DNA from: Bacteroidota bacterium
Lineage (GTDB): Bacteria; Bacteroidota; Ignavibacteria; Ignavibacteriales; Melioribacteraceae
Assembly (NCBI GenBank): GCA_021824635.1
Contig: JAKAKD010000071.1
Span: forward strand, 4,047 to 47,515
Reading direction: 5' to 3'
Length of the DNA: 43,469 nt
Shown here one piece after another: positions 18,761 to 42,612 of the stretch (the first letter of the stretch is position 1; every line of letters begins with the position of its first letter). The notes beneath the pieces were generated by a model. The model searched no databases. It was not told the DNA's origin and saw only the letters and a list, made by a program, of their open reading frames with translations. A program made the translations under genes and the position numbers.

Positions 18761-19807
18761 TTATGCGCGGGAATGTTCACCAATTTTCATCGAATCTCCT
18801 CTACTATTTGAAATTTTTCTTCCTATTGATTCAATTTGCAATTGCAGGCATCCTTTACAGTTGAGAGGATTATCATTAATACATTTTCTGTCCGGATAAA
18901 TTTGATACCGCTCTCTGTAAGGGCTCGGCGTTAAATCCGGCATAATAATATTGGCACCTACATTCAAACCTTTTATACGTCCAGCATCATCTAACGTAGC
19001 CAAAGCTGTTGTAGCAGGAATATGAACTTGTTTCAAAACAATTCTTCCCACAGCCATAACCCGTAAAGTTAAATCAACGTCGCCGGCAGATTTGCTTCGG
19101 TAAGGAGTTTCCGGTGAAGATATAAACGGACCGAAAGCAGCCATGTCAAGATCTAGTTCTTTGCAGAAAAGAATGTCATCTGCAATGTCTTCAACTGTCT
19201 GTAAAGGAAGTCCAATCATATTGCCGGAGCCGATTTGATAGCCGATTTCTTTCAAGAATTTCAAATGTGCAAGTCGGTCATCCAATCTTTGTTTATTATG
19301 ATAAATCGAATAGAGTTTTGGATTGGCAGTTTCATGTTTCAATAAATAACGGTCGGCACCTGCCATTTTCCATGAGCGGTATTCATCAAATCCTCTTTCA
19401 CCAAGACTTAAGGTAACTGCAAGTTCAGCTTTTTGTTTGATCTCGTAAATGATATATGCAATCATTGCAGTATCAAACTGATGATCTTCTCCGGATTGTA
19501 AAACAACTGTATAAATTCCAAGATTGGAAATAACGTGAGCGGTTTCAATTATTTCTTCCGGCGTCATCCGGTAGCGTTGCAGTTTCTTATTATCTTCTCT
19601 CAATCCGCAATAGATACAATTCTGCTCGCAATAATTAGACAGTTCAATGATTCCGCGCAGATGCACTTCATTGCCGCAATATTTAGAGCGCACTTCATCC
19701 GCACGGTCAAAAAGAAACTGTTGATCATTCTTATCGGTAAGATTAAGAAGAAAAACTATCTCTTCTTTTGAAAGATTTTCTTTGTGTAGTATTTCGTCTA
19801 AGTTCAT
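18761..19807 (-). CDS. hydE: [FeFe]-hydrogenase maturase HydE
   Basis: A 348-residue radical SAM protein needed to build the diiron H-cluster subsite. The cluster motif is C60-x3-C64-x2-C67 (CEQNCIYCGLR). SLGERGFDEYRSWKMAGADRYLLKHETANPKLY-like and GNMIGLPLQT segments match HydE rather than BioB or PylB. A Cys group near the C-terminus (CINDNPLNCKGC) fits an auxiliary cluster. It lies 79 bases after hydG in the same direction. No hydF or hydrogenase gene is in the window. Confidence 0.9.
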   Translation of the reverse strand: MNLDEILHKENLSKEEIVFLLNLTDKNDQQFLFDRADEVRSKYCGNEVHLRGIIELSNYCEQNCIYCGLREDNKKLQRYRMTPEEIIETAHVISNLGIYTVVLQSGEDHQFDTAMIAYIIYEIKQKAELAVTLSLGERGFDEYRSWKMAGADRYLLKHETANPKLYSIYHNKQRLDDRLAHLKFLKEIGYQIGSGNMIGLPLQTVEDIADDILFCKELDLDMAAFGPFISSPETPYRSKSAGDVDLTLRVMAVGRIVLKQVHIPATTALATLDDAGRIKGLNVGANIIMPDLTPSPYRERYQIYPDRKCINDNPLNCKGCLQLQIESIGRKISNSRGDSMKIGEHSRA

Positions 19808-19886
19808 TTTTACAAATGTTCCATTTGACTGCCCAATTGAACCATCTATGTTTTGATCTGAAGTTTATATAAATAAAAATTGAGTG

Positions 19887-21269
19887 CTAAAAGAAAACGT
19901 CGCGTTCACCGCTGTTAACCCTCGTTATCATCTCATCAGTTTTGCGTTTTGTTGCGCCCTCCAATCCTTCAACCTCTTTTATGATAAACTTTTCTGCAGC
20001 TTCTTTAGTCGCCGCGGAAGCAAAATCATTTGCATATTCTTTGAATGTTGAAAGTGCATTCGGCATGCACAACTTTCCGATATTTCCACTCTTAGCTAAT
20101 TCCATGAATCGGTCCCCTGTTCGCTCCGAACGGTAACACGCAGTGCAAAAACTTGGCAGAAAATCCAATTCGCAGCAATCTTTTACAACTTCATCAAGCG
20201 TTCTGTGATCACCAAGCTGAAATTGTTCCATCTCATGATTCTCTTCGGATTCATTATAAGCGCCCGGAGAAGTTCTGCTGCCGGCACTGATTTGAGAAAT
20301 CCCGACTTTGAAAAATTCTCGCCGTAATTCAGCACGTTCGCGAGTTGATAAAATTATGCCTGTATATGGAACAGCCAGTCGAATTACCGCGATTAATTTT
20401 TTGAATGATTCGTCATCAACTGCAAAGGGTGGATTATTTGCTTCCGGTGCATTTAAAGCTGGTTCCAAGCGCGGAACAGAAATAGTATGAGGACCAACAC
20501 CGAATCTTTGATCGAGATTAAATGCGTGGCTTAGCATTGCAAGAGTTTCAAATTTGTAATCCGTTAAACCGAATAACGCGCCAATGCCAACATCATCAAT
20601 ACCGGCTTGAAGCGCACGATCCATAGCAAATAACCGCCATGCGTAATCTCTCTTGGGTCCTTCGGGATGCATATACATATACGTATCGTAATGATAAGTT
20701 TCTTGAAAACATTGATAAGTCCCAATACCAAAACTTTTCAAAGTTTTAAAATCTGCTATACTCAACGGCGCTGTGTTTGCATTAATGCGGCGGATATTAC
20801 CGCCGTTAATGTTTACATCGTAAATTGTTTTAATTGATTCGCCGATAAATTCCATGCTCGATTTTTTTGGATGCTCGCCGCAGACAAGTAGAACTCTTTT
20901 GTGACCTTGCTTAACTAAAAATTCCGTCTCACTTTTTATCTCATCCAATGTTAAAGTTTTGCGTGTTAATTCTTTATTATCCTTACGAAATGCACAATAC
21001 AAACAATTGTTAACGCAGAGATTAGTAATGTAAAGCGGAGCGAACAAAACCAAACGGTTACCGTAAATCTTTTCTTTAACTTCCCGCGCTGTATGAAAAA
21101 GTTCTTCTGCTATCTCCGGATCGCTTATATTTAGAAGAGCTGCACTCTCTCTCAGCGTTAAACCTTTTGCTTCTTTTGATTTCTGAATCGCTTCTCTCTG
21201 AATTGCATGATCGTTTAGTTTGTCATCGTCAATTAGTGAAGCAATGTAAGATTCGTCAATAAATTCCAT
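19887..21269 (-). CDS. hydG: [FeFe]-hydrogenase maturase HydG
   Basis: A 460-residue radical SAM tyrosine lyase that makes CO and cyanide ligands for the hydrogenase H-cluster. The radical SAM motif is C85-x3-C89-x2-C92 (CVNNCLYC). The C-terminal domain has the second-cluster motif CTACYRSERTGDRFME...GKLC, which separates HydG from ThiH. Full length for the family. GGAGATTAGA precedes the ATG. It forms a two-gene unit with hydE; the 20-bp imperfect palindrome upstream may control both. Confidence 0.95.
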   Translation of the reverse strand: MEFIDESYIASLIDDDKLNDHAIQREAIQKSKEAKGLTLRESAALLNISDPEIAEELFHTAREVKEKIYGNRLVLFAPLYITNLCVNNCLYCAFRKDNKELTRKTLTLDEIKSETEFLVKQGHKRVLLVCGEHPKKSSMEFIGESIKTIYDVNINGGNIRRINANTAPLSIADFKTLKSFGIGTYQCFQETYHYDTYMYMHPEGPKRDYAWRLFAMDRALQAGIDDVGIGALFGLTDYKFETLAMLSHAFNLDQRFGVGPHTISVPRLEPALNAPEANNPPFAVDDESFKKLIAVIRLAVPYTGIILSTRERAELRREFFKVGISQISAGSRTSPGAYNESEENHEMEQFQLGDHRTLDEVVKDCCELDFLPSFCTACYRSERTGDRFMELAKSGNIGKLCMPNALSTFKEYANDFASAATKEAAEKFIIKEVEGLEGATKRKTDEMITRVNSGERDVFF

Positions 21270-22597: not shown

Positions 22598-23290
22598 TTA
22601 ATCAATAGTTTGGTCAGATACGCCCCATTTTTCAAACTTTTTCTTGTGCGCAATAATTCTCGCGTTCACGTAGAAAACTAAATTCTCGGCAATGTTTGTT
22701 GCGTGGTCCGCCAATCTCTCAATATGACGTGTTAAAACTATCAAGTGAGCGCACGGTTCTATAAGCTGCGTTTCGTTTTGCATTTTAAGAACAAGCGCTT
22801 TGAAAATTTGTTTATTAAACTTGTCAACACTTTCATCACTGTCAATAACTTTATTTGCAAGATCAATGTTATTGTTTATGAATGAATCAATTGCATTTTT
22901 CAACATTTCGCGAGCTTGTTTGCCCATTTCCAAGATTTGAGTCTCTGCAATAAGTGAATGATGTTCATTTGTTTTTTTAACTCGTTGCGCAATGTTCACT
23001 GCAATATCGCCGCATCTTTCCAACTGATTATTAATCATCATTACAGAGATTATAAAACGCAGATCTACGGCAACAGGCTGAAAAAGAGCAAGAATATTTT
23101 CACACTGAGTTTGAATAAGATTATCATATATATTCACCTCTAGCTCTTTAGCTTTTATCCCGCGGCATAATTCAACGTTACCGGTTTCGAGTGCTGTAAA
23201 AGCTTTTTCGGCTTGTTCATCTACAAGCGAAGCCATCTTAATCAGATTTATTTTCAAATTTTCTATCTGTTGATTGAAATTATCTTGCAT
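22598..23290 (-). CDS. phoU: PhoU-like phosphate signalling protein (second pst cluster)
   Basis: A 230-residue all-helical protein made of two PhoU repeats, each with the metal-binding E-x3-D motif: RCGDIAVNIAQRV and RLADHATNIAENLVFYV. PhoU links the Pst transporter to the PhoR/PhoB sensor and limits phosphate uptake. AAGGAAGGG precedes the start. It closes the second pst cluster and is clearly paralogous to the PhoU at 27.6 kb, with shared stretches such as YDNLIQTQCENI.ALFQPVA.DLR, indicating cluster duplication. Confidence 0.95.
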   Translation of the reverse strand: MQDNFNQQIENLKINLIKMASLVDEQAEKAFTALETGNVELCRGIKAKELEVNIYDNLIQTQCENILALFQPVAVDLRFIISVMMINNQLERCGDIAVNIAQRVKKTNEHHSLIAETQILEMGKQAREMLKNAIDSFINNNIDLANKVIDSDESVDKFNKQIFKALVLKMQNETQLIEPCAHLIVLTRHIERLADHATNIAENLVFYVNARIIAHKKKFEKWGVSDQTID

Positions 23291-23304
23291 AAGCCCTTCC
23301 TTTT

Positions 23305-24081
23305 TTAGCCATACTTTCCCGATATATAATCTTCGGTTAATTTTTTTGACGGATTTGTAAAAATATTTTTTGTTTGATTGAATTCAATCATCTCTCCCAT
23401 TAACATGTAGCCGGTAAAATCCGATACTCGTGATGCCTGCTGCATATTGTGAGTTACAATGACAATTGTATAATCCTTTTTTAATTCTATCATCAGCTCT
23501 TCAATTTTCATTGTTGCAATTGGATCAAGAGCAGAGCAAGGTTCGTCCATTAAAATAACTTCCGGCTGAACTGCGAGCAAACGTGCAATAACTAAACGCT
23601 GCTGCTGATCCAGAGGCAATTCCAAAGCTGGATGATCAAGTTTATCTTTGACCTGATCCCAAAGCCACGCCCCTCTTAAACTTTTTTCTGCAATTTCATC
23701 CGATTCTTTCTTGTTCCTTATACCGGCAACTCTAAGTCCATATACAACATTTTCATATATAGAAAGAGGAAACGGATTGGGTCGCTGGAAAACCATTCCT
23801 ACTCTTTTCCTTAACTCGGCAACTTCCAATGATGAATTATAAATATCTATTTCATCAAGAAGCACACTTCCAGTTATTTTAACTCCGTGAATTAAATCAT
23901 TCATCCTGTTAAGACTGCGTAATAATGTTGATTTCCCGCAGCCAGAAGGACCGATCAATGCAGTAATCATTTTTTCCTGAACAGGCATACTTACAGATAT
24001 GAGTGCCTGGAATTTACCATAGAATAGATTCAGCTTATCAATAGCAATTTTATTTTGTATAACTTTATTTATTTCAGTCAT
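23305..24081 (-). CDS. pstB: PstB-like ATPase with degenerate signature motif
   Basis: A 258-residue phosphate-type ABC ATPase. Walker [10 protein letters not shown] (44-52), Q-loop MVFQRPNPF (Gln99), Walker B ILMDEP with the catalytic Glu180, and switch His211 (VTHNM) are intact. The signature, normally LSGGQQQR, reads LPLDQQQR (155-162), losing the Ser-Gly-Gly that contacts the partner's ATP. It starts on the stop of the adjacent pstB (TGATG), so the two are made together. That partner has complementary defects. Best read as one half of a heterodimeric ATPase rather than a failing gene, since the rest is well conserved. Confidence 0.9.
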
Positions 24082-24836
24082 CAGCCGAATCTTCCTGTAA
24101 TGTAATCATTGGTTTCGATTCTGTTAGGAGTAGTAAAAATTTGTCCTGTTGAACCGATTTCAATCAGTTCGCCCATTAAGAAGAATGCGGTATTATCGGC
24201 TACTCTTGCTGCCTGCTTGGTGTTGTTTGTTACCAAAATAATTGTGTAATCTTTTTTGAGAACTGTAAGTGCATCTTCAATCTTAGCGGTAGAGATCGGG
24301 TCCAACCCGGAACAAGGTTCGTCAAGAAGAATCACCTCTGGTTCCATTGCAAGCACACGTGCAAGACAGAGCCGCTGCTGCTGTCCGCCTGAAAGTCTCA
24401 TTCCGGAAGTTTTTAAACGGTCCTTCACCTCATCCCAGAGATATGATGCGGTTAAACTTTTTTCTACTAGTTCATCCAATAGTTTTGAATCGTTAACTCC
24501 AGAGAGACGCACCCCATAAACAACATTTTCATAAATACTCATCGGCAGCGGGACAGGCATTGCGAAAACCATTCCGACTTTCTTCCTTAATGCAACAACA
24601 TCATAATCCGGTTTGTAAATATCTTCTTCGTCCAATAAAATATTCCCTTCGATTCGCGTTCCATCTTCCAGATCGTTCATACGATTTAATGCTCTTAAGA
24701 ACGTAGTCTTACCGGAACCGGATGGACCGATAATCCCTAATATTTTATTAGCAGGGATTTCGAAATTGATCTGCTTTAAAACTTTTTCTTCTTTGAAAAA
24801 TAAGTCCAAATCTTTTATGTGAAATTTTGTCTTCAT
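24081..24836 (-). CDS. pstB: PstB-like ATPase with altered Q-loop and switch residue
   Basis: A 251-residue phosphate-type ABC ATPase. Walker [10 protein letters not shown] (38-46), signature [10 protein letters not shown] (148-157) and Walker B VILLDEP are intact. The Q-loop Gln is Ala92 ([10 protein letters not shown] instead of the usual FQ-PNPFP) and the switch histidine is Asn204 (VTNNT instead of VTHNM). These residues belong to its own ATP site, which is completed by the signature of the next ATPase, the one that is degenerate. ATG 24836 is chosen, 17 bases after the pstA stop; a TTG at 24869 would overlap pstA. Confidence 0.9.
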
Positions 24837-24852
24837 CAATTGACCAATAAAT

Positions 24853-25689
24853 TTAACTTCTCTTTGCAATAAAACGGTGCATCAGCCAGTAAGCGGAAAG
24901 ATTAACAATAAGAACAGCAATAATTAATGTTGCAGCTGTTGCGTATGCATTCTCTGCCGATATTCCTTCACGCGCTAAAATATAAAAGTGAACAGCCATT
25001 GTACGTGTCGAATCAAAGACTGAACTAGGAATACGCAATGAAGAACCGGCAGTGAATATAACTGCTGCAGTCTCTCCTATTGCACGACCAATGCTCAACA
25101 TAATTCCCGTTACAATTCCCGGAAGTGCGTTTGGCAAAATTACCTTTTTGACTGTCTGCCAGCTTGTAGCACCAAGAGAAAAGCTCACTTCACGATAAGA
25201 TTTTGGTACAGCTCTAATTGCTTCTTCCGAAGTACGGATTATTGTAGGCAAAATCATTACCGCTAATGTCAATCCGCCGGAAAGAATTGACCACCCGAAA
25301 CCAAGTGTTACAACAAAAAAGATATAACCGAATAGACCAAAAATGATAGAAGGAATTCCCGCAAGACAATCTGTACCAAACCGGATTATTCTTGTTGCTT
25401 TATTTTCTTTAGTATATTCAGAAAGATAAACCGAAGTGAAAATTCCTAACGGTGTTGCAATTATGATTGCGAGTAAAGGCAAAATGATCGTGCCTATCAA
25501 TGTCGGGAAAATTCCCCCGGCACGCCCCATATCAGTCGGATTGGTTGTAAGAAAACTCAAACTGATTCCCGGCAAACCTTTTTCCAGAATAAAGAAAATT
25601 ATGAAAGCTAAAATCAGAAGAGTTAGTAAAGTTGCTCCTCCTAAAACTGCAATTGCACCGCGCTGTGTATATCGTGGATGAATTCTCAT
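24853..25689 (-). CDS. pstA: Phosphate ABC transporter permease PstA (second cluster)
   Basis: A 278-residue inner-membrane permease with about six transmembrane helices. The ATPase-coupling loop shows YREVSFSLGATSWQTVKKVILPNALPGI, and GIPSIIFGLFGYIFF and SIGRAIGETAAVI are PstA hallmarks. Its start overlaps the pstC stop by 4 bases. It would pair with PstC and, in this cluster, with two different ATPases; PstA is the more likely contact for one and PstC for the other, but which is which cannot be told. Confidence 0.94.
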   Translation of the reverse strand: MRIHPRYTQRGAIAVLGGATLLTLLILAFIIFFILEKGLPGISLSFLTTNPTDMGRAGGIFPTLIGTIILPLLAIIIATPLGIFTSVYLSEYTKENKATRIIRFGTDCLAGIPSIIFGLFGYIFFVVTLGFGWSILSGGLTLAVMILPTIIRTSEEAIRAVPKSYREVSFSLGATSWQTVKKVILPNALPGIVTGIMLSIGRAIGETAAVIFTAGSSLRIPSSVFDSTRTMAVHFYILAREGISAENAYATAATLIIAVLIVNLSAYWLMHRFIAKRS

Positions 25690-26543
25690 TTCTTGACTGC
25701 CCTCTTTCTAAGAACAACGCTGGCAATCGAGTTCAAAATTATAATACCAATAAATAGGACAACGCCAGTCGCAAAGAGAGCTTGCCTATGAAGTCCCGTG
25801 GCGTAACTCATTTCCAAAGCTATGTTTGCAGTTAATGTCCTAACTGAATCCAAAGGTGAATGAGGGATATTTACGGAATTTCCAGCAACCATAATGACTG
25901 CCATCGTTTCTCCTATAGCACGCCCCATTCCAAGAATTATACTTGCAATAATTCCCGATTTAGAAGCTTTAACAGTAACCATATGAATTGTCTGCCACGT
26001 TGTTGCTCCCAGCGCCAATGATCCTTCCCGATATGATTGAGGAACAGCCATTATTGAATCAATAGAAATACTGATAACCGTAGGGAGAATCATAATACCA
26101 AGAATAATTGATGCGGCAAGAAGTGAGAGTCCCGGACCTCCAAAATTATTTCTAATTAAAGGCGCAAGAACCATCACACCTATAAAACCGTAAACGACCG
26201 ATGGAATTGCAGCCAGTAGTTCAATTGTGGGTTTAATTATGCGCATGATGGATTTGGGCACGTACTCTGTCAAAAAGAAAGCACCTGCAACTCCTAGTGG
26301 CGCACCTATTACTAATGCGCCGAATGTAACCCATAATGAGGCTACTATCATCGGATAGATGCCATACTTTCCTAAATGCGGATTCCAATCGGAAGAGAAA
26401 AGAAAATCCTTTACTCCATATTTAAAAATGAACGGCAATCCTTCATTAAGAATAAAGAGAGCAATCAACAGCAGAGCAGAAATTGCAGAAAATGCCGTCA
26501 ACATCAGAATGCGTTTTACTCCCTTTTCACCAATTAACTTCAT
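25686..26543 (-). CDS. pstC: Phosphate ABC transporter permease PstC (second cluster)
   Basis: A 285-residue permease with about six transmembrane helices, the coupling loop YREGSLALGATTWQTIHMVTVKASKSGI, the AAIPSVVYGFIGVMVLAP helix and MGRAIGETMAVIMVAGN. It follows pstS by 27 bases and overlaps pstA by 4. It is notably different from the PstC at 30 kb, shorter by 28 residues, mainly at the N-terminal periplasmic part. Confidence 0.94.
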   Translation of the reverse strand: MKLIGEKGVKRILMLTAFSAISALLLIALFILNEGLPFIFKYGVKDFLFSSDWNPHLGKYGIYPMIVASLWVTFGALVIGAPLGVAGAFFLTEYVPKSIMRIIKPTIELLAAIPSVVYGFIGVMVLAPLIRNNFGGPGLSLLAASIILGIMILPTVISISIDSIMAVPQSYREGSLALGATTWQTIHMVTVKASKSGIIASIILGMGRAIGETMAVIMVAGNSVNIPHSPLDSVRTLTANIALEMSYATGLHRQALFATGVVLFIGIIILNSIASVVLRKRAVKK

Positions 26544-26570
26544 CGAAAATTTTCCTGAATCCAGAATAAA

Positions 26571-27365
26571 TTATTTTGCTGGCAACAAGCCTTCTGCTTT
26601 AATTGTTTTTTGTCCTTCATCAGACAGAATATAATCTATAAAGTTTTTTGTCTCTCCTTCCAAAGATCCTTTCACAAGCAAGAAGATCGGTCTAACCAAT
26701 TTATATTTTCCGCTAACAATGTTTTCAACAGTGCATTCTTGATCGTCAATTTTAAGGGCTTTAATTTTTTCATTAATAAGACCGTGAGAAACATACCCAA
26801 TAGAGTTGGCATCGTTAGCAACAGTTTCTCTTATTGTACCGTTTGAATCCTGTATTAATGCGTCCTTCTTCAAATTAATTCCGGTAACGATCTGTTCAAA
26901 TGAGGATCTTGTTCCGGAACCTGCTTCACGCGATACAACAGTAATTGGCGCATCTATCCCGCCGACTTCTTTCCAGTTAGTAATTTTTCCGTTAAAGATA
27001 TCGCGTACTTGATCTGTTGATAGATCAGTGACCTTATTTAAGGGATTGACTACTATGGCGACTCCATCCTTAGCAACAACTGTAGCAGTTAAATCTTTAG
27101 CTTCCTTAGGGAGAGTTACAAGATCAGCCATTCCGATCTGAGCTGCGCCGGAATTTGCAGACTGGATTCCTACTGCCGAGCCGCCTCCCTGAACCGTAAT
27201 AACAACATTATTATTGGTAGCCATATATTGGTCTGCAAGCTTCTCTGCGAAAGGTTGAAAAGCCGTAGAACCTGCCAAGGTGATAGATGTTTTTCCTTTA
27301 CCGCAACCCCACATAATTGCTATAAGCAATAGTGCTGAACTAAATACTAATATTTTCTTAAACAT
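26571..27365 (-). CDS. pstS: Phosphate-binding lipoprotein PstS (second cluster, short form)
   Basis: A 264-residue substrate-binding lipoprotein: MFKKILVFSSALLLIAIMWGC with lipobox Cys21, then AGSTAFQPFAEKLADQY, GSAVGIQSANSGAAQIGMAD and the anion-binding loop SREAGSGTRSSFEQ. It is of the short PBP-like class, about 80 residues shorter than the PstS at 31 kb, and membrane-anchored rather than freely periplasmic. GGAGGAATCT is a strong ribosome binding site. The 230-base gap upstream shows no terminator and no clear Pho box, so it may have its own promoter or be read from the first operon. Confidence 0.93.
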   Translation of the reverse strand: MFKKILVFSSALLLIAIMWGCGKGKTSITLAGSTAFQPFAEKLADQYMATNNNVVITVQGGGSAVGIQSANSGAAQIGMADLVTLPKEAKDLTATVVAKDGVAIVVNPLNKVTDLSTDQVRDIFNGKITNWKEVGGIDAPITVVSREAGSGTRSSFEQIVTGINLKKDALIQDSNGTIRETVANDANSIGYVSHGLINEKIKALKIDDQECTVENIVSGKYKLVRPIFLLVKGSLEGETKNFIDYILSDEGQKTIKAEGLLPAK

Positions 27366-27595
27366 AGATTCCTCCGGTAAATAAGAGCTGATTAATTAAA
27401 TACAATTCTGATATGATGTGCAAAGTTAGGGATTTGAAGTGATTCTTTCCAAATTGATTTAATTTCAAAAATCTAATTGAAATGATGGAATTAGAAAAGA
27501 CCCCGTTTGTTTATAAGTGAATTTAAGAAAAGCAATCGTATTTGAAGTAATTCAAACAACATAATAATTCATTAAGAATATCATTTAATTACGCA

Positions 27596-28297
27596 CTAAT
27601 CAATTTTGTCTTTTTCTTCTTGACTATCCACATATCTTTCAGTTTTTTTTCTATGCGCAATTATTTTTGCTTCGACATAAAAAACTAAGTTCTCAGCAAT
27701 ATTTGTTGCGTGATCAGCCATTCGTTCAAGATGCCGTGTCATAACAACAAGATGAGTACACGCTTCTATCAGTTCCGGGTTCGACTGCATCTTCGCCACA
27801 AGAAAACTGAAAATTTGTTTATTCATCTTGTCTACTGTTTCATCGTTTGCAATTACCTGACTTGCCAGTTCGGTATCATTCCTAATGAATGAATCAATTG
27901 CGTTCTTCAGCATTGTCTGAGAAGTACGCGCCATATCAATTATCTGCGATTCAACGATAAGAGCACGTTCGTTTCCGGTTTTTTTTACTCTTTGAGAAAT
28001 ATTAACCGCAATATCTCCGCATCGTTCAATATTATTGTTGATCATTATAGCCGACATTACCAGTCTTAAATCAGTAGCTACAGGCTGAAAAAGTGCAATT
28101 ATATTCTCGCATTGGGTTTGGATTAAATTGTCGTAGGCATCAACTTCCATGTCTCTCGACTTAACTCCTTTGCATAAATCTATGTTGCCCGTTTCCAAAG
28201 CCGTTATCACTTTATCAACCTGGTCATCTACAACCGATGCCATTCTGATGAGGTTGCTTTTTAATTCTTCTATTTCGCCCTGAAAATGTTCTTTCAT
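27596..28297 (-). CDS. phoU: PhoU-like phosphate signalling protein (first pst operon)
   Basis: A 233-residue two-repeat helical PhoU with RCGDIAVNISQRV and RMADHATNIAENLVFYV metal motifs. ATG 28297 is chosen because AAGGGA lies at proper spacing; longer readings run into pstB. It is the last gene of porin-pstSCAB-phoU and is a paralogue of the phoU at 22.6 kb. It probably tunes transporter activity and Pho signalling; PhoR and PhoB genes are not in the window. Confidence 0.95.
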   Translation of the reverse strand: MKEHFQGEIEELKSNLIRMASVVDDQVDKVITALETGNIDLCKGVKSRDMEVDAYDNLIQTQCENIIALFQPVATDLRLVMSAIMINNNIERCGDIAVNISQRVKKTGNERALIVESQIIDMARTSQTMLKNAIDSFIRNDTELASQVIANDETVDKMNKQIFSFLVAKMQSNPELIEACTHLVVMTRHLERMADHATNIAENLVFYVEAKIIAHRKKTERYVDSQEEKDKID

Positions 28298-28313
28298 AAT
28301 TTTTCCCTTTTTA

Positions 28314-29063
28314 TCATCCGAAACGACCGCGGATATAATCTTCTGTTTGTTGTTTATCTGGTGATGTAAACATTTTTTTTGTATCGGAAAATTCAATTAG
28401 TTCGCCCATGTAGAAAAACGCTGTGTAGTCGCTTACGCGCGCGGCTTGCTGCATATTGTGAGTAACAATTACAATCGTATAATCTTTCTTCAATTCAAAA
28501 ATCAAATCTTCTATTTTTGTAGTAGAAATTGGGTCAAGAGCACTTGCTGGCTCATCCATCAGTATCACTTCTGGGTTCACAGCAAGAGTACGGGCGATAC
28601 ATAATCTTTGCTGCTGACCGCCGGAAATATTCGCTCCAGAATCGTTCAAATTATTTTTTACTTCTTCCCACAAAGCAGCTTGTCTTAAACACTTCTCAAC
28701 AATTGGAGTAATTTGTTTTTTATTCCGAACACCGTTCAGTTTCAAACCTGCGGCAACATTGTTAAAGATAGACATTGATGGGAACGGATTTGGCTTCTGA
28801 AAAACCATCCCGACTCTTTTGCGTAATAAAACCGGATCAGTTTTGGTTAGATCTTCTCCGTCAAGCAGAATTTCCCCCTTTATTGTTCCGCCTACAACTT
28901 CATGCATTCTATTCAGACTTCTTAAAAAAGTTGATTTCCCGCAGCCCGATGGACCTATGATTGCTACAACTTTATTCTTCGGAATATCCAGCGAGATATT
29001 TTTTAGAACTTGATTCTTGCCGTAATAAGCATCTAAATTTTTTATTGATAATTTAATTTCCAT
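28314..29063 (-). CDS. pstB: Phosphate ABC transporter ATPase PstB (canonical)
   Basis: A 249-residue canonical PstB. All motifs are intact: Walker [11 protein letters not shown]-loop [12 protein letters not shown], signature [13 protein letters not shown], Walker [14 protein letters not shown] and switch [11 protein letters not shown]. It would act as a homodimer under PstC and PstA of this operon. It is a useful internal control for the two altered PstB copies 4 kb away. It lies 14 bases after pstA and 16 before phoU. Confidence 0.97.
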
Positions 29064-29077
29064 TTTATCCAGGTTGT

Positions 29078-29929
29078 TTAATTCGTTTTATATTTTGAAC
29101 GGGTAATAATTCTAAAGACCAGACTTAGAATTGATATTAATAAAATGAGTACGAGTGCTGCAGTCCATGCCTGCTGATTCCAATCTTCGAATGGTGATTT
29201 TGCATAATCATATATGTAAACAGTTAAAGAAGCAATAGGTTGACCGATACTTGTTGACCAGAAACGATTTCCAAGAGCTGTAAATAATAACGGTGCTGTT
29301 TCACCCGCGGCTCTTGATAATCCAAGCAACACTCCTGTAGCAATTCCCTTCCAGGCTGAACGAATAACAATAGCTAAGGTTGTTTTCCATTTTGGAATGC
29401 CCAATGCTAATCCGGCTTCTCTTAACGAATGAGGGACTAATTTAATCATCTCCTCGGTTGTTCTTGTTATAGTTGGAATCATTAAAATTCCGAGCGCAAT
29501 ACCACCGGCAATTGCAGAGAAGTGTTTCATCGGCAGTACAACCATTGTATAAGCAACAACTCCAACTACAATGGAAGGAACACCGCTCAGAACATCCGTT
29601 AAAAATCTAACCATAAAGCCAAATTTGTTATTCCCAAATTCGGATAGATATGTTCCGGTCATAATTCCTACCGGAACACCTATAGCGCCGCCAATACCAA
29701 TTAGCATTAACGTTCCAACAATTGCATTTGCCATTCCTCCGCCTGTTTCTCCGACCGGTTTAGGCATTGCAATAAAAAAATCAAGATTTAAATACGTGAT
29801 ACCTTTGGAAATTGTGTAATAGAAAATGAAAATAAGAGGAACTATTGCGGCTAATGTTGCCGCAAAAGTCAGAGACATCATTATCATACTTGTTATTTTT
29901 TTTCTGTAATGGAAAAATCTTGAATTCAT
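29078..29929 (-). CDS. pstA: Phosphate ABC transporter permease PstA (first operon)
   Basis: A 283-residue permease, about six transmembrane helices, with the coupling loop [28 protein letters not shown] and [20 protein letters not shown]. The ATG at 29929 shares one base with the pstC stop (TAATG), a typical coupled junction; an ATG at 29944 would add five residues. It lies 14 bases before pstB. Confidence 0.95.
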
Positions 29930-30870
29930 TATGTTGTCTTCCATCTTCTATTCATACGCCAAACGAGTAAACGTGCAAACGCGTTAATAATAATTGTGAT
30001 AACAAATAATACTAATGCTAATTGAATTAATGCACTCAGATACATTTCGGAAGTAGCTTCTGTAAATTCATTAGCGATAACACTTGCCATTGTATAAGAA
30101 GGATCGAATAATGACGGTGATATCAACGCCCTGTTGCCGATTACCATTGTTACTGCCATTGTTTCTCCTATTGCACGTCCTAGACCCAACATTGTTGCAC
30201 CAAGTATTCCTGACCTCGCATCTCTTAGGACTATCATAGTTGATTGCCATCTTGTTGCGCCTAGCGCCAATGCAGCTTCTCTCTGAGATCTAGGTACTGA
30301 TTTAAGCACATCACGGGAAATGGAGGAAATAATCGGCAAGACCATTATAGATAGAATAAGCACCGCGGCTAGGAGACCAAATCCGTAAGGCGCACCTCTA
30401 AAGAACGGCAAGAAACCCAATTTATCTGATAGATAAGGTTCAACATCTGTACGAATCCACGGAACCAGAACAAAGATTCCCCACAGTCCATAAATTACAC
30501 TCGGGATGCCTGCTAATAATTCTACCAGAAATGAAAGAGGTTTTTCCAGCCATGGCGGTGCTACTTCAGCCAAATAAATTGCGACTCCAATACTCAACGG
30601 CAGTGCGATGATCAGCGCCAGCAGTGAAGAAACAATTGTTCCATAAATAATCGGTAATGCACCATAAATTTCTTGTACAGGATCCCAAGTTGAATTAACT
30701 AAGAAACTCCATCCGAATTTATCAATAGATAATTTGGAACCAAGATACATTTCATAACCCATCAATAGAACAAGCAGAAAAACCGACACTGCAAATAACA
30801 ATGTCAGTTTTTCGAATATGAGATCACCAAGATTACGGGAAGAAAATATTTTCTTTAATTTATTTTTCAC
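29929..30870 (-). CDS. pstC: Phosphate ABC transporter permease PstC (first operon)
   Basis: A 313-residue permease with about six transmembrane helices. The loop QREAALALGATRWQSTMIVLRDARSGI, LLAGIPSVIYGLWGIFVLVP and LGRAIGETMAVTMVIGN are PstC signatures. It starts 24 bases after pstS. Confidence 0.96.
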   Translation of the reverse strand: MKNKLKKIFSSRNLGDLIFEKLTLLFAVSVFLLVLLMGYEMYLGSKLSIDKFGWSFLVNSTWDPVQEIYGALPIIYGTIVSSLLALIIALPLSIGVAIYLAEVAPPWLEKPLSFLVELLAGIPSVIYGLWGIFVLVPWIRTDVEPYLSDKLGFLPFFRGAPYGFGLLAAVLILSIMVLPIISSISRDVLKSVPRSQREAALALGATRWQSTMIVLRDARSGILGATMLGLGRAIGETMAVTMVIGNRALISPSLFDPSYTMASVIANEFTEATSEMYLSALIQLALVLFVITIIINAFARLLVWRMNRRWKTT

Positions 30871-30894
30871 ACTGCTCTCTGTTAATCCGTTTTA

Positions 30895-31938
30895 CTATTT
30901 AATCTTCTTTCCATTTACAGTTATTGTTGCAATATTCTTTTCGCACATCTTAACAACTGCTTTTGGAAGCGGCGCATAATATAGTCCGGTTGCAAATGAC
31001 TGACCTTTTCCCATCGCCCACTTTAAAAATTTAACAAGAGCTCCTGCTTTTGTTTCGTCTTTCATGTTCTGATAAATTAGAAGCCACGTGAATCCCGAAA
31101 TTGGATAAGAGTTTTTACCATCGGGATCAGTAATAGAAACACGTAAATCTGAAGGCATATTTTTAGCGGCTCCTTCTGCAGCTGCGCTTACTGATTCAAA
31201 AGAAGCTTCAACAAATTTGCCGGCTTTATTTTTCATATTGGCATAACTAATTTTATTTTGAACTGCGTAGGCAAGTTCAACATATCCAACAGATCCTCCG
31301 GTTTGTTTAACCAATCCGGCAACGCCGTCATTTCCTTTTCCGCCTAAACCAACCGGCCAGTTTACAGAAGTTCCTTTACCTACTTTGGTTTCCCATTCTT
31401 TGCTGACTTTGCTTAAATAATCAGTAAAAATGAAAGAGGTACCGCTTCCATCGGAACGGTGAGCAACTACTATTGATACGTTAGGCAGATTCAATTTTGG
31501 ATTTAATTTCTTTATTGCCGCATCATTCCATTTGGTAATCTTTCCTAAATAGATATCCGCTAGTACAGTTCCGTCAAGATTCAAACCTGATATACCCGGT
31601 ACGTTGTATGCAACAACAACAGCGCCCATAACTGTAGGAATGTGAAGAATGGTTGTGTTCTGTTTTGACTTAGCTTCTTCTAATTGTTTATCATTCATTG
31701 GACCATCGGAAGCACCGAAGTCAACAGTTCCTTCTGTAACTTGTTTAATTCCGCCGCCGCTGCCGATTGCTTGATAATTAAATTGAACGCCGGTCATATT
31801 CTTATATTCATCAAACCACTTTGAATAAATTACAGCCGGGAATGTTGCACCGGCACCGTTCAACTGCAGCTGTGCGCTTGCAAGTGATGAAATTGACAGC
31901 ATTAGAAAAAGTACTGATATGATATTTCTTAATTTCAT
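30895..31938 (-). CDS. pstS: Periplasmic phosphate-binding protein PstS (first operon)
   Basis: A 347-residue full-length PstS with a cleavable signal peptide (cleavage likely after ASA, near residue 22). Phosphate-binding stretches include NGAGATFPAVIYSKW, GSGGGIKQVTEGTVDFGASDGPM and AHRSDGSGTSFIFTDYL. It delivers phosphate to PstCA. It follows the porin gene by 28 bases, so outer-membrane entry and periplasmic capture are co-expressed from the Pho box at 33077-33115. Confidence 0.97.
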   Translation of the reverse strand: MKLRNIISVLFLMLSISSLASAQLQLNGAGATFPAVIYSKWFDEYKNMTGVQFNYQAIGSGGGIKQVTEGTVDFGASDGPMNDKQLEEAKSKQNTTILHIPTVMGAVVVAYNVPGISGLNLDGTVLADIYLGKITKWNDAAIKKLNPKLNLPNVSIVVAHRSDGSGTSFIFTDYLSKVSKEWETKVGKGTSVNWPVGLGGKGNDGVAGLVKQTGGSVGYVELAYAVQNKISYANMKNKAGKFVEASFESVSAAAEGAAKNMPSDLRVSITDPDGKNSYPISGFTWLLIYQNMKDETKAGALVKFLKWAMGKGQSFATGLYYAPLPKAVVKMCEKNIATITVNGKKIK

Positions 31939-41547: not shown

Positions 41548-42612
41548 ATGAACAATCTATCATTTAAGAACAACACTTTCTTTGTTGGTCTTGATACTCA
41601 CCTTAAGAATTGGAAGGTTACAATTCGCAACTCTGGTCTTGAACTAAAAACTTTTTCTATGAACCCTTCACCATTAGAATTATACCATTACCTAACTAAG
41701 CATTATCCCGATGGTATCTTTAACATAGTTTACGAAGCTGGGTTTTCTGGTTTTTGGCCTCTAAGAAAATTCAAAGAACTTGGTGTAAATTGTATCATTG
41801 TTAATCCTGCTGATATTCCTTCCTCTAACAAAGAAAAAGTTGTGAAAACTGATCTAACAGATTCCCGTAAACTAGCTCGTGAATTTGAAAACAATTCTCT
41901 TCAACCTATCTACATCCCTGATGTTTATGCAGAACAACTTCGTTCTCTTATGCGTCTTCGTTTTCAACTTGTGCAAACACAAACTAGAATTAAAAATAGA
42001 ATTAAAATGCTTCTATATAATTATGGTATCATCATCCCTAAAGAACATCTTACAAATTCTCGTTGGTCTGGATACTTTATAAACTGGCTTAATTCTGTAA
42101 AACTTTCTTGTAATGCTGGGCAACTCACGCTAATCAATCTTCTCCTTCAGTTACAACAGTGTAGAGAAAATCTTAATGTTGTTCTTCACCAGCTAAGAGT
42201 AGAAGCTAAAAATAAATCCATCGAACCAATCATTAATTCTCTTGTCTCAGTTCCTGGTATCGCTTTCATTACTGCTATGTCTCTCTTTACAGAAATTATC
42301 GACATCAAACGTTTTAAGAGTTTTGATCATCTTGCTTCTTTTGTTGGTCTTGTTCCTTCTCTTTGCTCTTCAGGTCAAACTGAATACAGTAGAGGAATAT
42401 CTTTTCGTCACAATAAATTTTTACGCCCACTTATTGTTGAAGCTGCTTGGACTGCCATCAGAAAAGATCCGGCTATTACCCTTGTTTACTCTCAACTAAT
42501 TAAACAGATGTCAAAACAGAAAGTTGTTATTAAAATTGCTAAAAAGCTGCTTTCAAGAATCAGACATGTTTGGATTCAACAAGAACAATATCAATTTGCT
42601 CTTGTTGCCTAA
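41548..42612 (+). CDS. IS110/IS1111-family transposase
   Basis: A 354-residue DEDD-type transposase. The N-terminal RuvC-like domain has FVGLDTHLKNWKV, VYEAGFSGF and the KTDLTDSRKLAREF block; the C-terminal domain has SLVSVPGIAFITAMSLFTEI, FVGLVPSLCSSG and RGISFRHNKFLRPLIVEAAW with the catalytic Ser region. The frame is intact, so it may be active. Synonymous codon choice is T-rich compared with neighbours, a sign of transfer. GGAGA lies shortly before the ATG. The element's outer ends could not be fixed, since this family lacks typical terminal inverted repeats. Confidence 0.93.
   Translation: MNNLSFKNNTFFVGLDTHLKNWKVTIRNSGLELKTFSMNPSPLELYHYLTKHYPDGIFNIVYEAGFSGFWPLRKFKELGVNCIIVNPADIPSSNKEKVVKTDLTDSRKLAREFENNSLQPIYIPDVYAEQLRSLMRLRFQLVQTQTRIKNRIKMLLYNYGIIIPKEHLTNSRWSGYFINWLNSVKLSCNAGQLTLINLLLQLQQCRENLNVVLHQLRVEAKNKSIEPIINSLVSVPGIAFITAMSLFTEIIDIKRFKSFDHLASFVGLVPSLCSSGQTEYSRGISFRHNKFLRPLIVEAAWTAIRKDPAITLVYSQLIKQMSKQKVVIKIAKKLLSRIRHVWIQQEQYQFALVA

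Follow-up and report, generated by a model that had tools for sequence, protein, structure and literature searches.

A tandem PstB pair with complementary ATP-site substitutions in a Melioribacteraceae pst operon suggests a Pst importer variant with one canonical ATP site

The locus and its two pst operons

To characterise an unusual pair of adjacent pstB genes, we analysed a stretch of 43,469 nt (hereafter the window) from a Bacteroidota bacterium (Ignavibacteriales; Melioribacteraceae; assembly GCA_021824635.1, contig JAKAKD010000071.1, positions 4,047-47,515). PstB is the nucleotide-binding domain (NBD) protein of Pst importers, which belong to the ATP-binding cassette (ABC) transporters. 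Profile matches showed that the minus strand of the window holds two full pst operons of differing type, arranged back to back at 22598-31938. The first has the order pstS1 (30895-31938), pstC1, pstA1, a canonical pstB and phoU1, and the second has the order pstS2, pstC2, pstA2, pstB-B, pstB-A and phoU2. The substrate-binding proteins also differ in type, as the first operon combines a TIGR00975 PstS with the canonical PstB and the second a TIGR02136 PstS with the degenerate pair described below. All proteins of the second operon scored above the curated cut-offs of their own Pst or PhoU families, and its Pst importer gene set (pstS, pstC, pstA, pstB, phoU) is complete. Judged by family membership, the transported substrate is presumably phosphate. 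The relatives that were read at length have a gene set matching that of the second operon, some of them being cut by the ends of a contig or stretch.

PstB-A and PstB-B carry complementary substitutions

The two PstB proteins of the second operon, PstB-A (258 aa) and PstB-B (251 aa from the ATG at 24836; the mechanically called open reading frame (ORF) begins earlier, at a TTG at 24869), are encoded by genes that overlap by one base (TGATG), with pstB-B upstream. An earlier note, made from the DNA letters, had reported LPLDQ in place of the LSGGQ signature in PstB-A and, in PstB-B, replacement of the Q-loop Gln by Ala and of the switch (H-loop) His by Asn; minus-strand translation reproduced each of these at the coordinates in Table 1. 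It had also described the remaining core motifs as intact, and this is likewise what the translation gives: PstB-A retains its Walker A, Q-loop, Walker B (LMDEP) and switch motifs, and PstB-B its Walker B (LLDEP) and LSGGQ. The surroundings of the PstB-B Q-loop are rewritten (AMPVPLP versus QKPNPFP). PstB-A is 53% identical to PstB-B and 58% identical to the canonical PstB of the first operon. Since both members of the pair pass the equivalog cut-off of TIGR00972 (343.2 bits), family annotation alone would miss the substitutions. Neither subunit has the full set of canonical ATP-site motifs, PstB-A lacking LSGGQ and PstB-B the Q-loop Gln and the switch His; this yardstick is a working one of our own and not part of TIGR00972.

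It is established knowledge, set out in part of a review (PMC7756269), that each ATP site of an ABC dimer combines Walker A, Walker B, Q-loop and H-loop of one subunit with the signature of the other. In an A-B dimer, one site would thus unite the Walker A, Walker B, Gln and His of PstB-A with the LSGGQ of PstB-B, and would be canonical. At the second site the Ala and Asn of PstB-B would meet the LPLDQ of PstB-A. Both sites of an A-A dimer would be without a normal signature, and both sites of a B-B dimer without the Gln and, in nearly all such proteins, the His, so only the A-B combination would yield one fully canonical site. The residues therefore support the proposal of the earlier note that all the losses fall on a single composite site, provided that the predicted heterodimer forms, and the co-occurrence of the losses in other pairs gives it further support.

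The substitutions co-occur in other genomes

Among 30 loci read from the window's own genome and 39 relatives we found 14 tandem pairs, 12 with the substitutions and two canonical. Within the genus, the pattern is present in 7 of 12 genomes (own included) and is patchy; three of the five genomes without it are less than 90% complete. The wider collection of 328 loci contained 97 unique tandem pairs, of which 90 were complementary, seven were canonical on both sides and none was mixed. The losses were confined to one composite site, with the other site canonical, in these 90 pairs and in four pairs from permuted operons, and the B gene was upstream in 90 of 90 complementary tandem pairs. A recurrence in 12 of 14 close and 90 of 97 wider tandem pairs argues against chance, and the co-occurrence that the earlier note had put forward as a check is evident. 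It should be pointed out that the loci were picked by similarity to PstB or to a B profile, which had been built from 12 diverse B proteins and was searched against the window genome's own class and the phyla to which several carriers belong. Because at most 30 loci were taken per search, with weak matches cut, all prevalence figures are lower bounds. The choice of loci partly selects for the changes in B; the signature of A was unselected.

A scan of named genomes identified carriers among metagenome-assembled genomes (MAGs) labelled Ignavibacteriae, Aminicenantes, Elusimicrobia, WOR-1, planctomycete, Syntrophorhabdus and Deltaproteobacteria. Counting every genome with either a complementary pair or a gene of the B type, we found at least 17 of 245 in the class to which the window genome belongs, and at least 11 of 199, 27 of 247, 9 of 149 and 21 of 74 in the phyla of carriers G558, G564, G561 and G560, respectively. 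The count for the phylum of G564 includes four permuted operons and that for the phylum of G561 includes L295, whose B gene lies at a contig edge and was counted as B without a pair. For the phylum that contains the Lederbergia genome G565 (249 genomes), the best 30 loci were read and included none of this type. Four B loci in the phylum of G564 at first appeared to lack A and were considered as counterexamples, but wider stretches showed A at the opposite end of the operon. In these four genomes A (LTLGQ) precedes pstS2 in the same operon, and B has Asp for the Q-loop Gln and His at the switch position. No natural B-A fusion, that is, no ORF with two PstB domains, occurred among the 328 loci.

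In a later set, 69 further B loci were read from 198 genomes in the phylum of the Elusimicrobia genome G559. Gln and His were both lost in 69 of 69 B proteins. A was present in the first stretch at 52 of these loci, and at two more it followed some 1.3 and 3.1 kb later, together with PhoU. The signature was altered in all 54 A genes found with B.

Residue patterns across PstB proteins

When 400 unique PstB-like proteins were sorted by Q-loop Gln, switch His and signature, they fell into 95 A-type, 95 B-type and 210 canonical proteins, with no other combination. Identical proteins had been merged, and aligned matches shorter than 225 aa were kept out of the three classes. The Q, H and signature columns are fixed by the class definition and rank highly by construction, a circularity from which the counts for the 97 pairs are free. 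One unpaired protein with LSAGQ (L036) was dropped from the A-type, leaving 94. This protein (L036:1501-2274), from a genome of the same family as the window genome, is a single PstB with Gln and His intact and no partner within its stretch.

Walker A of the A-type proteins reads GPSGCGK[ST] in 93 of 94 cases and GSSGCGKS in the remaining one. Their signature is variable (21 variants among the 94), with an acidic residue (Glu or Asp) at position 4 in 90 of 94 proteins. Gly is kept at position 3 in six and at position 4 in four of them; in a recount, both were lost in 84 of 94. Two A proteins from the phylum of G560 (L327 and L328) have DEI for DEP after Walker B. With regard to the B-type, the lost Gln is replaced by Ala (84), Ser (7) or Asp (4), Asn stands at the switch position in 91 of 95 and His in four, and the fourth residue of the P-loop is changed in 65 of 95. 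B also differs from canonical proteins in columns that played no part in the sorting: Met becomes Thr or Val two positions past the switch residue, the Walker A Cys becomes Ser, the Asn after the Gln becomes hydrophobic, the Phe becomes Leu and the D-loop Ala becomes Gly.

Phylogeny, selection and the permease side

A tree built from all columns (94 A, 95 B and 210 canonical proteins) placed A in one clade (0.971) and B in one clade (0.698). We also built a tree from 26 A, 26 B and 41 canonical proteins after removal of 43 ATP-site columns. In this motif-free tree, B forms one side of a branch with a Shimodaira-Hasegawa-like approximate likelihood ratio test (SH-aLRT) value of 94. Firmicutes also have adjacent genes in the form of pstB1/pstB2 tandems, but canonical tandem members (Bacillota; G016/G018) branch apart from A and B in the motif-free tree, which suggests that tandem duplication occurred more than once.

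Across 90 paired loci, the evolutionary distances of A are correlated with those of B (r 0.74), a value that 0 of 2000 shuffles reached, with the relatedness of the loci left in. Both genes are under purifying selection: over 12 loci each, and likewise with relatedness left in, the ratio of nonsynonymous to synonymous rates (dN/dS) had a median of 0.061 in A, where dS was finite in 16 of 66 comparisons, and of 0.058 in B, where it was finite in 28 of 66.

The coupling helices of the permeases were also compared. In the PstA encoded upstream of 81 B genes, Ser precedes the LG (position 6) in 77 of 81 cases against 6 of 134 canonical ones, and Val occupies position 3 in 73 of 81 against 0 of 134. 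The later set gave Ser in 56 of 66 PstA proteins. PstC showed no change like that of PstA, position 6 being Ala in 68 of 68 cases and in 62 of 62 in the later set. These permease residues hint at a fixed seating, with B under PstA and A under PstC.

A proposed heterodimer with one canonical ATP site

Taken with the operon context, the patterns above point to a conserved, apparently undescribed variant of the Pst importer. In this variant A and B most likely dimerise with each other, leaving one ATP site canonical and the other degenerate. The second operon would encode a Pst-type phosphate importer whose two NBDs assemble as A-B. The canonical site, to which A would bring its two Walker motifs, Q-loop and His and B its LSGGQ, would hydrolyse ATP and drive transport. 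The other site would be formed by the nucleotide-binding half of B, with Gln to Ala, His to Asn, a rewritten Q-loop and often an altered P-loop, and by the LxxE/D signature of A; this remodelled site is predicted to bind nucleotide but to hydrolyse it hardly or not at all, and may have a structural or regulatory role.

Several observations weigh against this interpretation. The motif-free tree, when left free, puts the A protein of a permuted operon (L358) among canonical PstB proteins, so that A needs two changes. A tree with A as one clade had a higher likelihood and was not rejected (approximately unbiased test, p-AU 0.913), and the same was true of A plus B together (p-AU 0.955). Val in the PstA coupling helix was considered as a general marker of the B operons and rejected, as it was present in only 11 of 66 PstA proteins of the later set; Ser held better. 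Linkage of the two genes also has exceptions in the later set. At 11 of the 69 B loci no A was present within 2.8-8.9 kb downstream, and four further loci lie at contig edges. For one of the 11, the small MAG G1675, its 29 contigs were read and neither A nor PhoU was seen, a few of the smallest contigs being unreadable. At two loci (L445 and L448) the contig end is close upstream as well, leaving room for a permuted A. Either strict A-B linkage fails in the phylum of G559, or A lies in trans, or the assemblies are short; the 11 loci count against a universal A-B rule. The B protein of G1675 (L452:8070-8822) has the D-loop LSLDP for SGLDP.

The remaining objection concerns the chemistry of the degenerate site. 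Loss of the Walker B Glu might be expected there, but 95 of 95 B proteins retain this residue, and the second site could accordingly keep some hydrolysis. This leads to the best-placed rival explanation, namely that both composite sites of A-B still hydrolyse ATP and that the substitutions tune rate or affinity. The Asn at the B switch position can still form hydrogen bonds, and part of a review records that MRP1 kept wild-type-like transport with Asn or Gln for the switch His of its nucleotide-binding site 2 (NBS2) (PMC7756269). On the other hand, three elements of one and the same site (Gln, His and signature) change together, and most A proteins have lost both signature Gly residues. We consider activity at both sites rather unlikely.

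It is considerably less probable that A and B are not partners, and that each instead pairs with the canonical PstB of the neighbouring operon or regulates that system. The window genome does belong to the 62 of 80 carriers with three or more PstB matches. Nevertheless, among the matches listed, only two PstB matches (E <=1e-70) were found in the other 18 of 80 carrier genomes (76 tandem and four permuted; 14 of 94 were left out), the two being taken as the pair itself; completeness is given for a minority of the 18, G114 being listed at 99%. Furthermore, the pair has its own operon with PstS, PstC, PstA and PhoU, and A and B behave as partners in both their occurrence and their covariation. 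That one member is a decaying duplicate with substitutions from neutral wear, as the variable A signature and the 11 later-set loci without A might suggest, is the least credible explanation given the dN/dS values of about 0.06 for both genes, the patterned replacements and the absence of mixed pairs among the 97; decay confined to one lineage was rejected, as the pair recurs across phyla.

Comparison with known systems

The canonical Pst importer contains a PstB homodimer, and importers of this kind are usually seen as symmetric two-site machines. The proteins of the second operon belong to the same Pst families as PstSCAB, but two distinct, complementary PstB proteins take the place of one PstB used twice. 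PstB chains with a sequence match are deposited as 9k3x, 9k3y and 9k3s.

One-site heterodimers are best known from exporters. TM287/288, BmrCD, TAP, CFTR and Pdr5 likewise have complementary losses on one composite site, the other being canonical. The earlier note had likened the pair to TM287/288 and CFTR, and this likeness stands as a functional analogy and only as such, with the Walker B Glu always kept in B and the switch His present in four of the 95 B proteins. The five systems are exporters or a channel; here the NBDs stand alone, with a binding protein and separate PstC and PstA, and the fusion of permease and NBD seen in TM287/288 is lacking. According to part of a review (PMC7756269), the Walker B Glu is replaced in several degenerate-site exporters, unlike in PstB-B, other degenerate patterns exist, as in ABCG5/G8, and the Pdr5 signature LNVEQ is acidic at position 4, as is the LSLEQ of A proteins. 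This shared acidic position is presumably convergent.

Importers with two different NBDs include DppDF and RbsA/NupO. RbsA and NupO are said, in part of one paper, to hold one degenerate site (PMC11466899); they are fused NBDs of type II importers and not Pst proteins. For E. coli DppDF, part of another paper reports that both subunits can hydrolyse (PMC12136057), unlike what we propose for A-B. Adjacent pstB1/pstB2 genes are described in the pst-phoU operon of E. faecalis in a portion of one study (PMC12096839), and PstBA and PstBB of B. subtilis were modelled in one complex, as stated in a section of the paper on RbsA and NupO (PMC11466899). In the open-licence literature, including work on degenerate importers generally, we recognised no description of a degenerate-site Pst pair, which agrees with the earlier note, to whose author such a design was not familiar as a described property of Pst importers.

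If the interpretation is correct, a single-site Pst class would offer a natural experiment on whether type I importers depend on two firing sites, and a one-site Pst pair would make it testable whether the import of one molecule takes one ATP hydrolysis or two. Transport has reportedly been obtained with engineered HisP having one intact site, and MalK with one mutated site is said to transport poorly. A pair that is spread over several phyla and called simply PstB by the family model would also argue for splitting TIGR00972. A more far-reaching reading, which we offer tentatively and consider doubtful as it stands, is that the pair marks an ancient and widespread Pst class running on a single hydrolytic site, thereby halving the ATP spent per phosphate. 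Its second site, with acidic signature, Asn switch, rewritten Q-loop and PstA-side coupling change, might then serve as a nucleotide latch that does not hydrolyse, controlling the gating or signalling to PhoU.

Features of the window

The coordinates of the genes and motifs discussed above are collected in Table 1.

Table 1. Genes and sequence motifs of the second pst operon, with the canonical PstB of the first operon for internal comparison
Feature	Positions	Strand	Basis
PstB-A (NBD), signature altered; Walker A/B, Q-loop and switch His canonical	23305..24081	-	TIGR00972, 381.7 bits
LPLDQ replacing LSGGQ, PstB-A	23605..23619	-	translation
Walker A GPSGCGKS, intact, PstB-A	23929..23952	-	translation
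Q-loop VFQRP, intact, PstB-A	23779..23793	-	translation
Switch VTHN, intact, PstB-A	23446..23457	-	translation
PstB-B (NBD), Q-loop and switch residue altered; LSGGQ canonical	24081..24836	-	TIGR00972, 362.4 bits
Ala codon for Q-loop Gln (VFAMP), PstB-B	24561..24563	-	translation
Asn codon for switch (H-loop) His (VTNN), PstB-B	24225..24227	-	translation
LSGGQ signature, intact, PstB-B; half of the canonical composite site	24381..24395	-	translation
D-loop SGLD, PstB-B (SALD in PstB-A and the canonical neighbour)	24300..24311	-	translation, column comparison
PstA2 permease	24853..25689	-	TIGR00974
PstA2 coupling (EAA) helix REVSFSLG, unlike usual PstA	25171..25194	-	comparison
PstC2 permease	25686..26543	-	TIGR02138
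PstC2 coupling helix REGSLALG, usual kind	26007..26030	-	comparison
PstS2 phosphate-binding protein	26571..27365	-	TIGR02136, 220.7 bits, cut-off 206.6
PhoU2, final gene of the second operon	22598..23290	-	TIGR02135
Canonical PstB of the adjacent first operon (ISGGQ, Gln and His intact)	28314..29063	-	TIGR00972, 388.0 bits

Upstream of pstS1, the segment 31967-33025 gave a weak match to Pfam Porin_O_P, a phosphate-selective porin family (E 3.6e-06). An adjoining pair of radical-SAM proteins, one of them with a BATS domain, is encoded at 18761-21269 and resembles the hydrogenase maturases HydE and HydG as judged by reading of the sequence. Finally, an IS110-family transposase (Pfam Transposase_20 and DEDD_Tnp_IS110) is located at 41548-42612.
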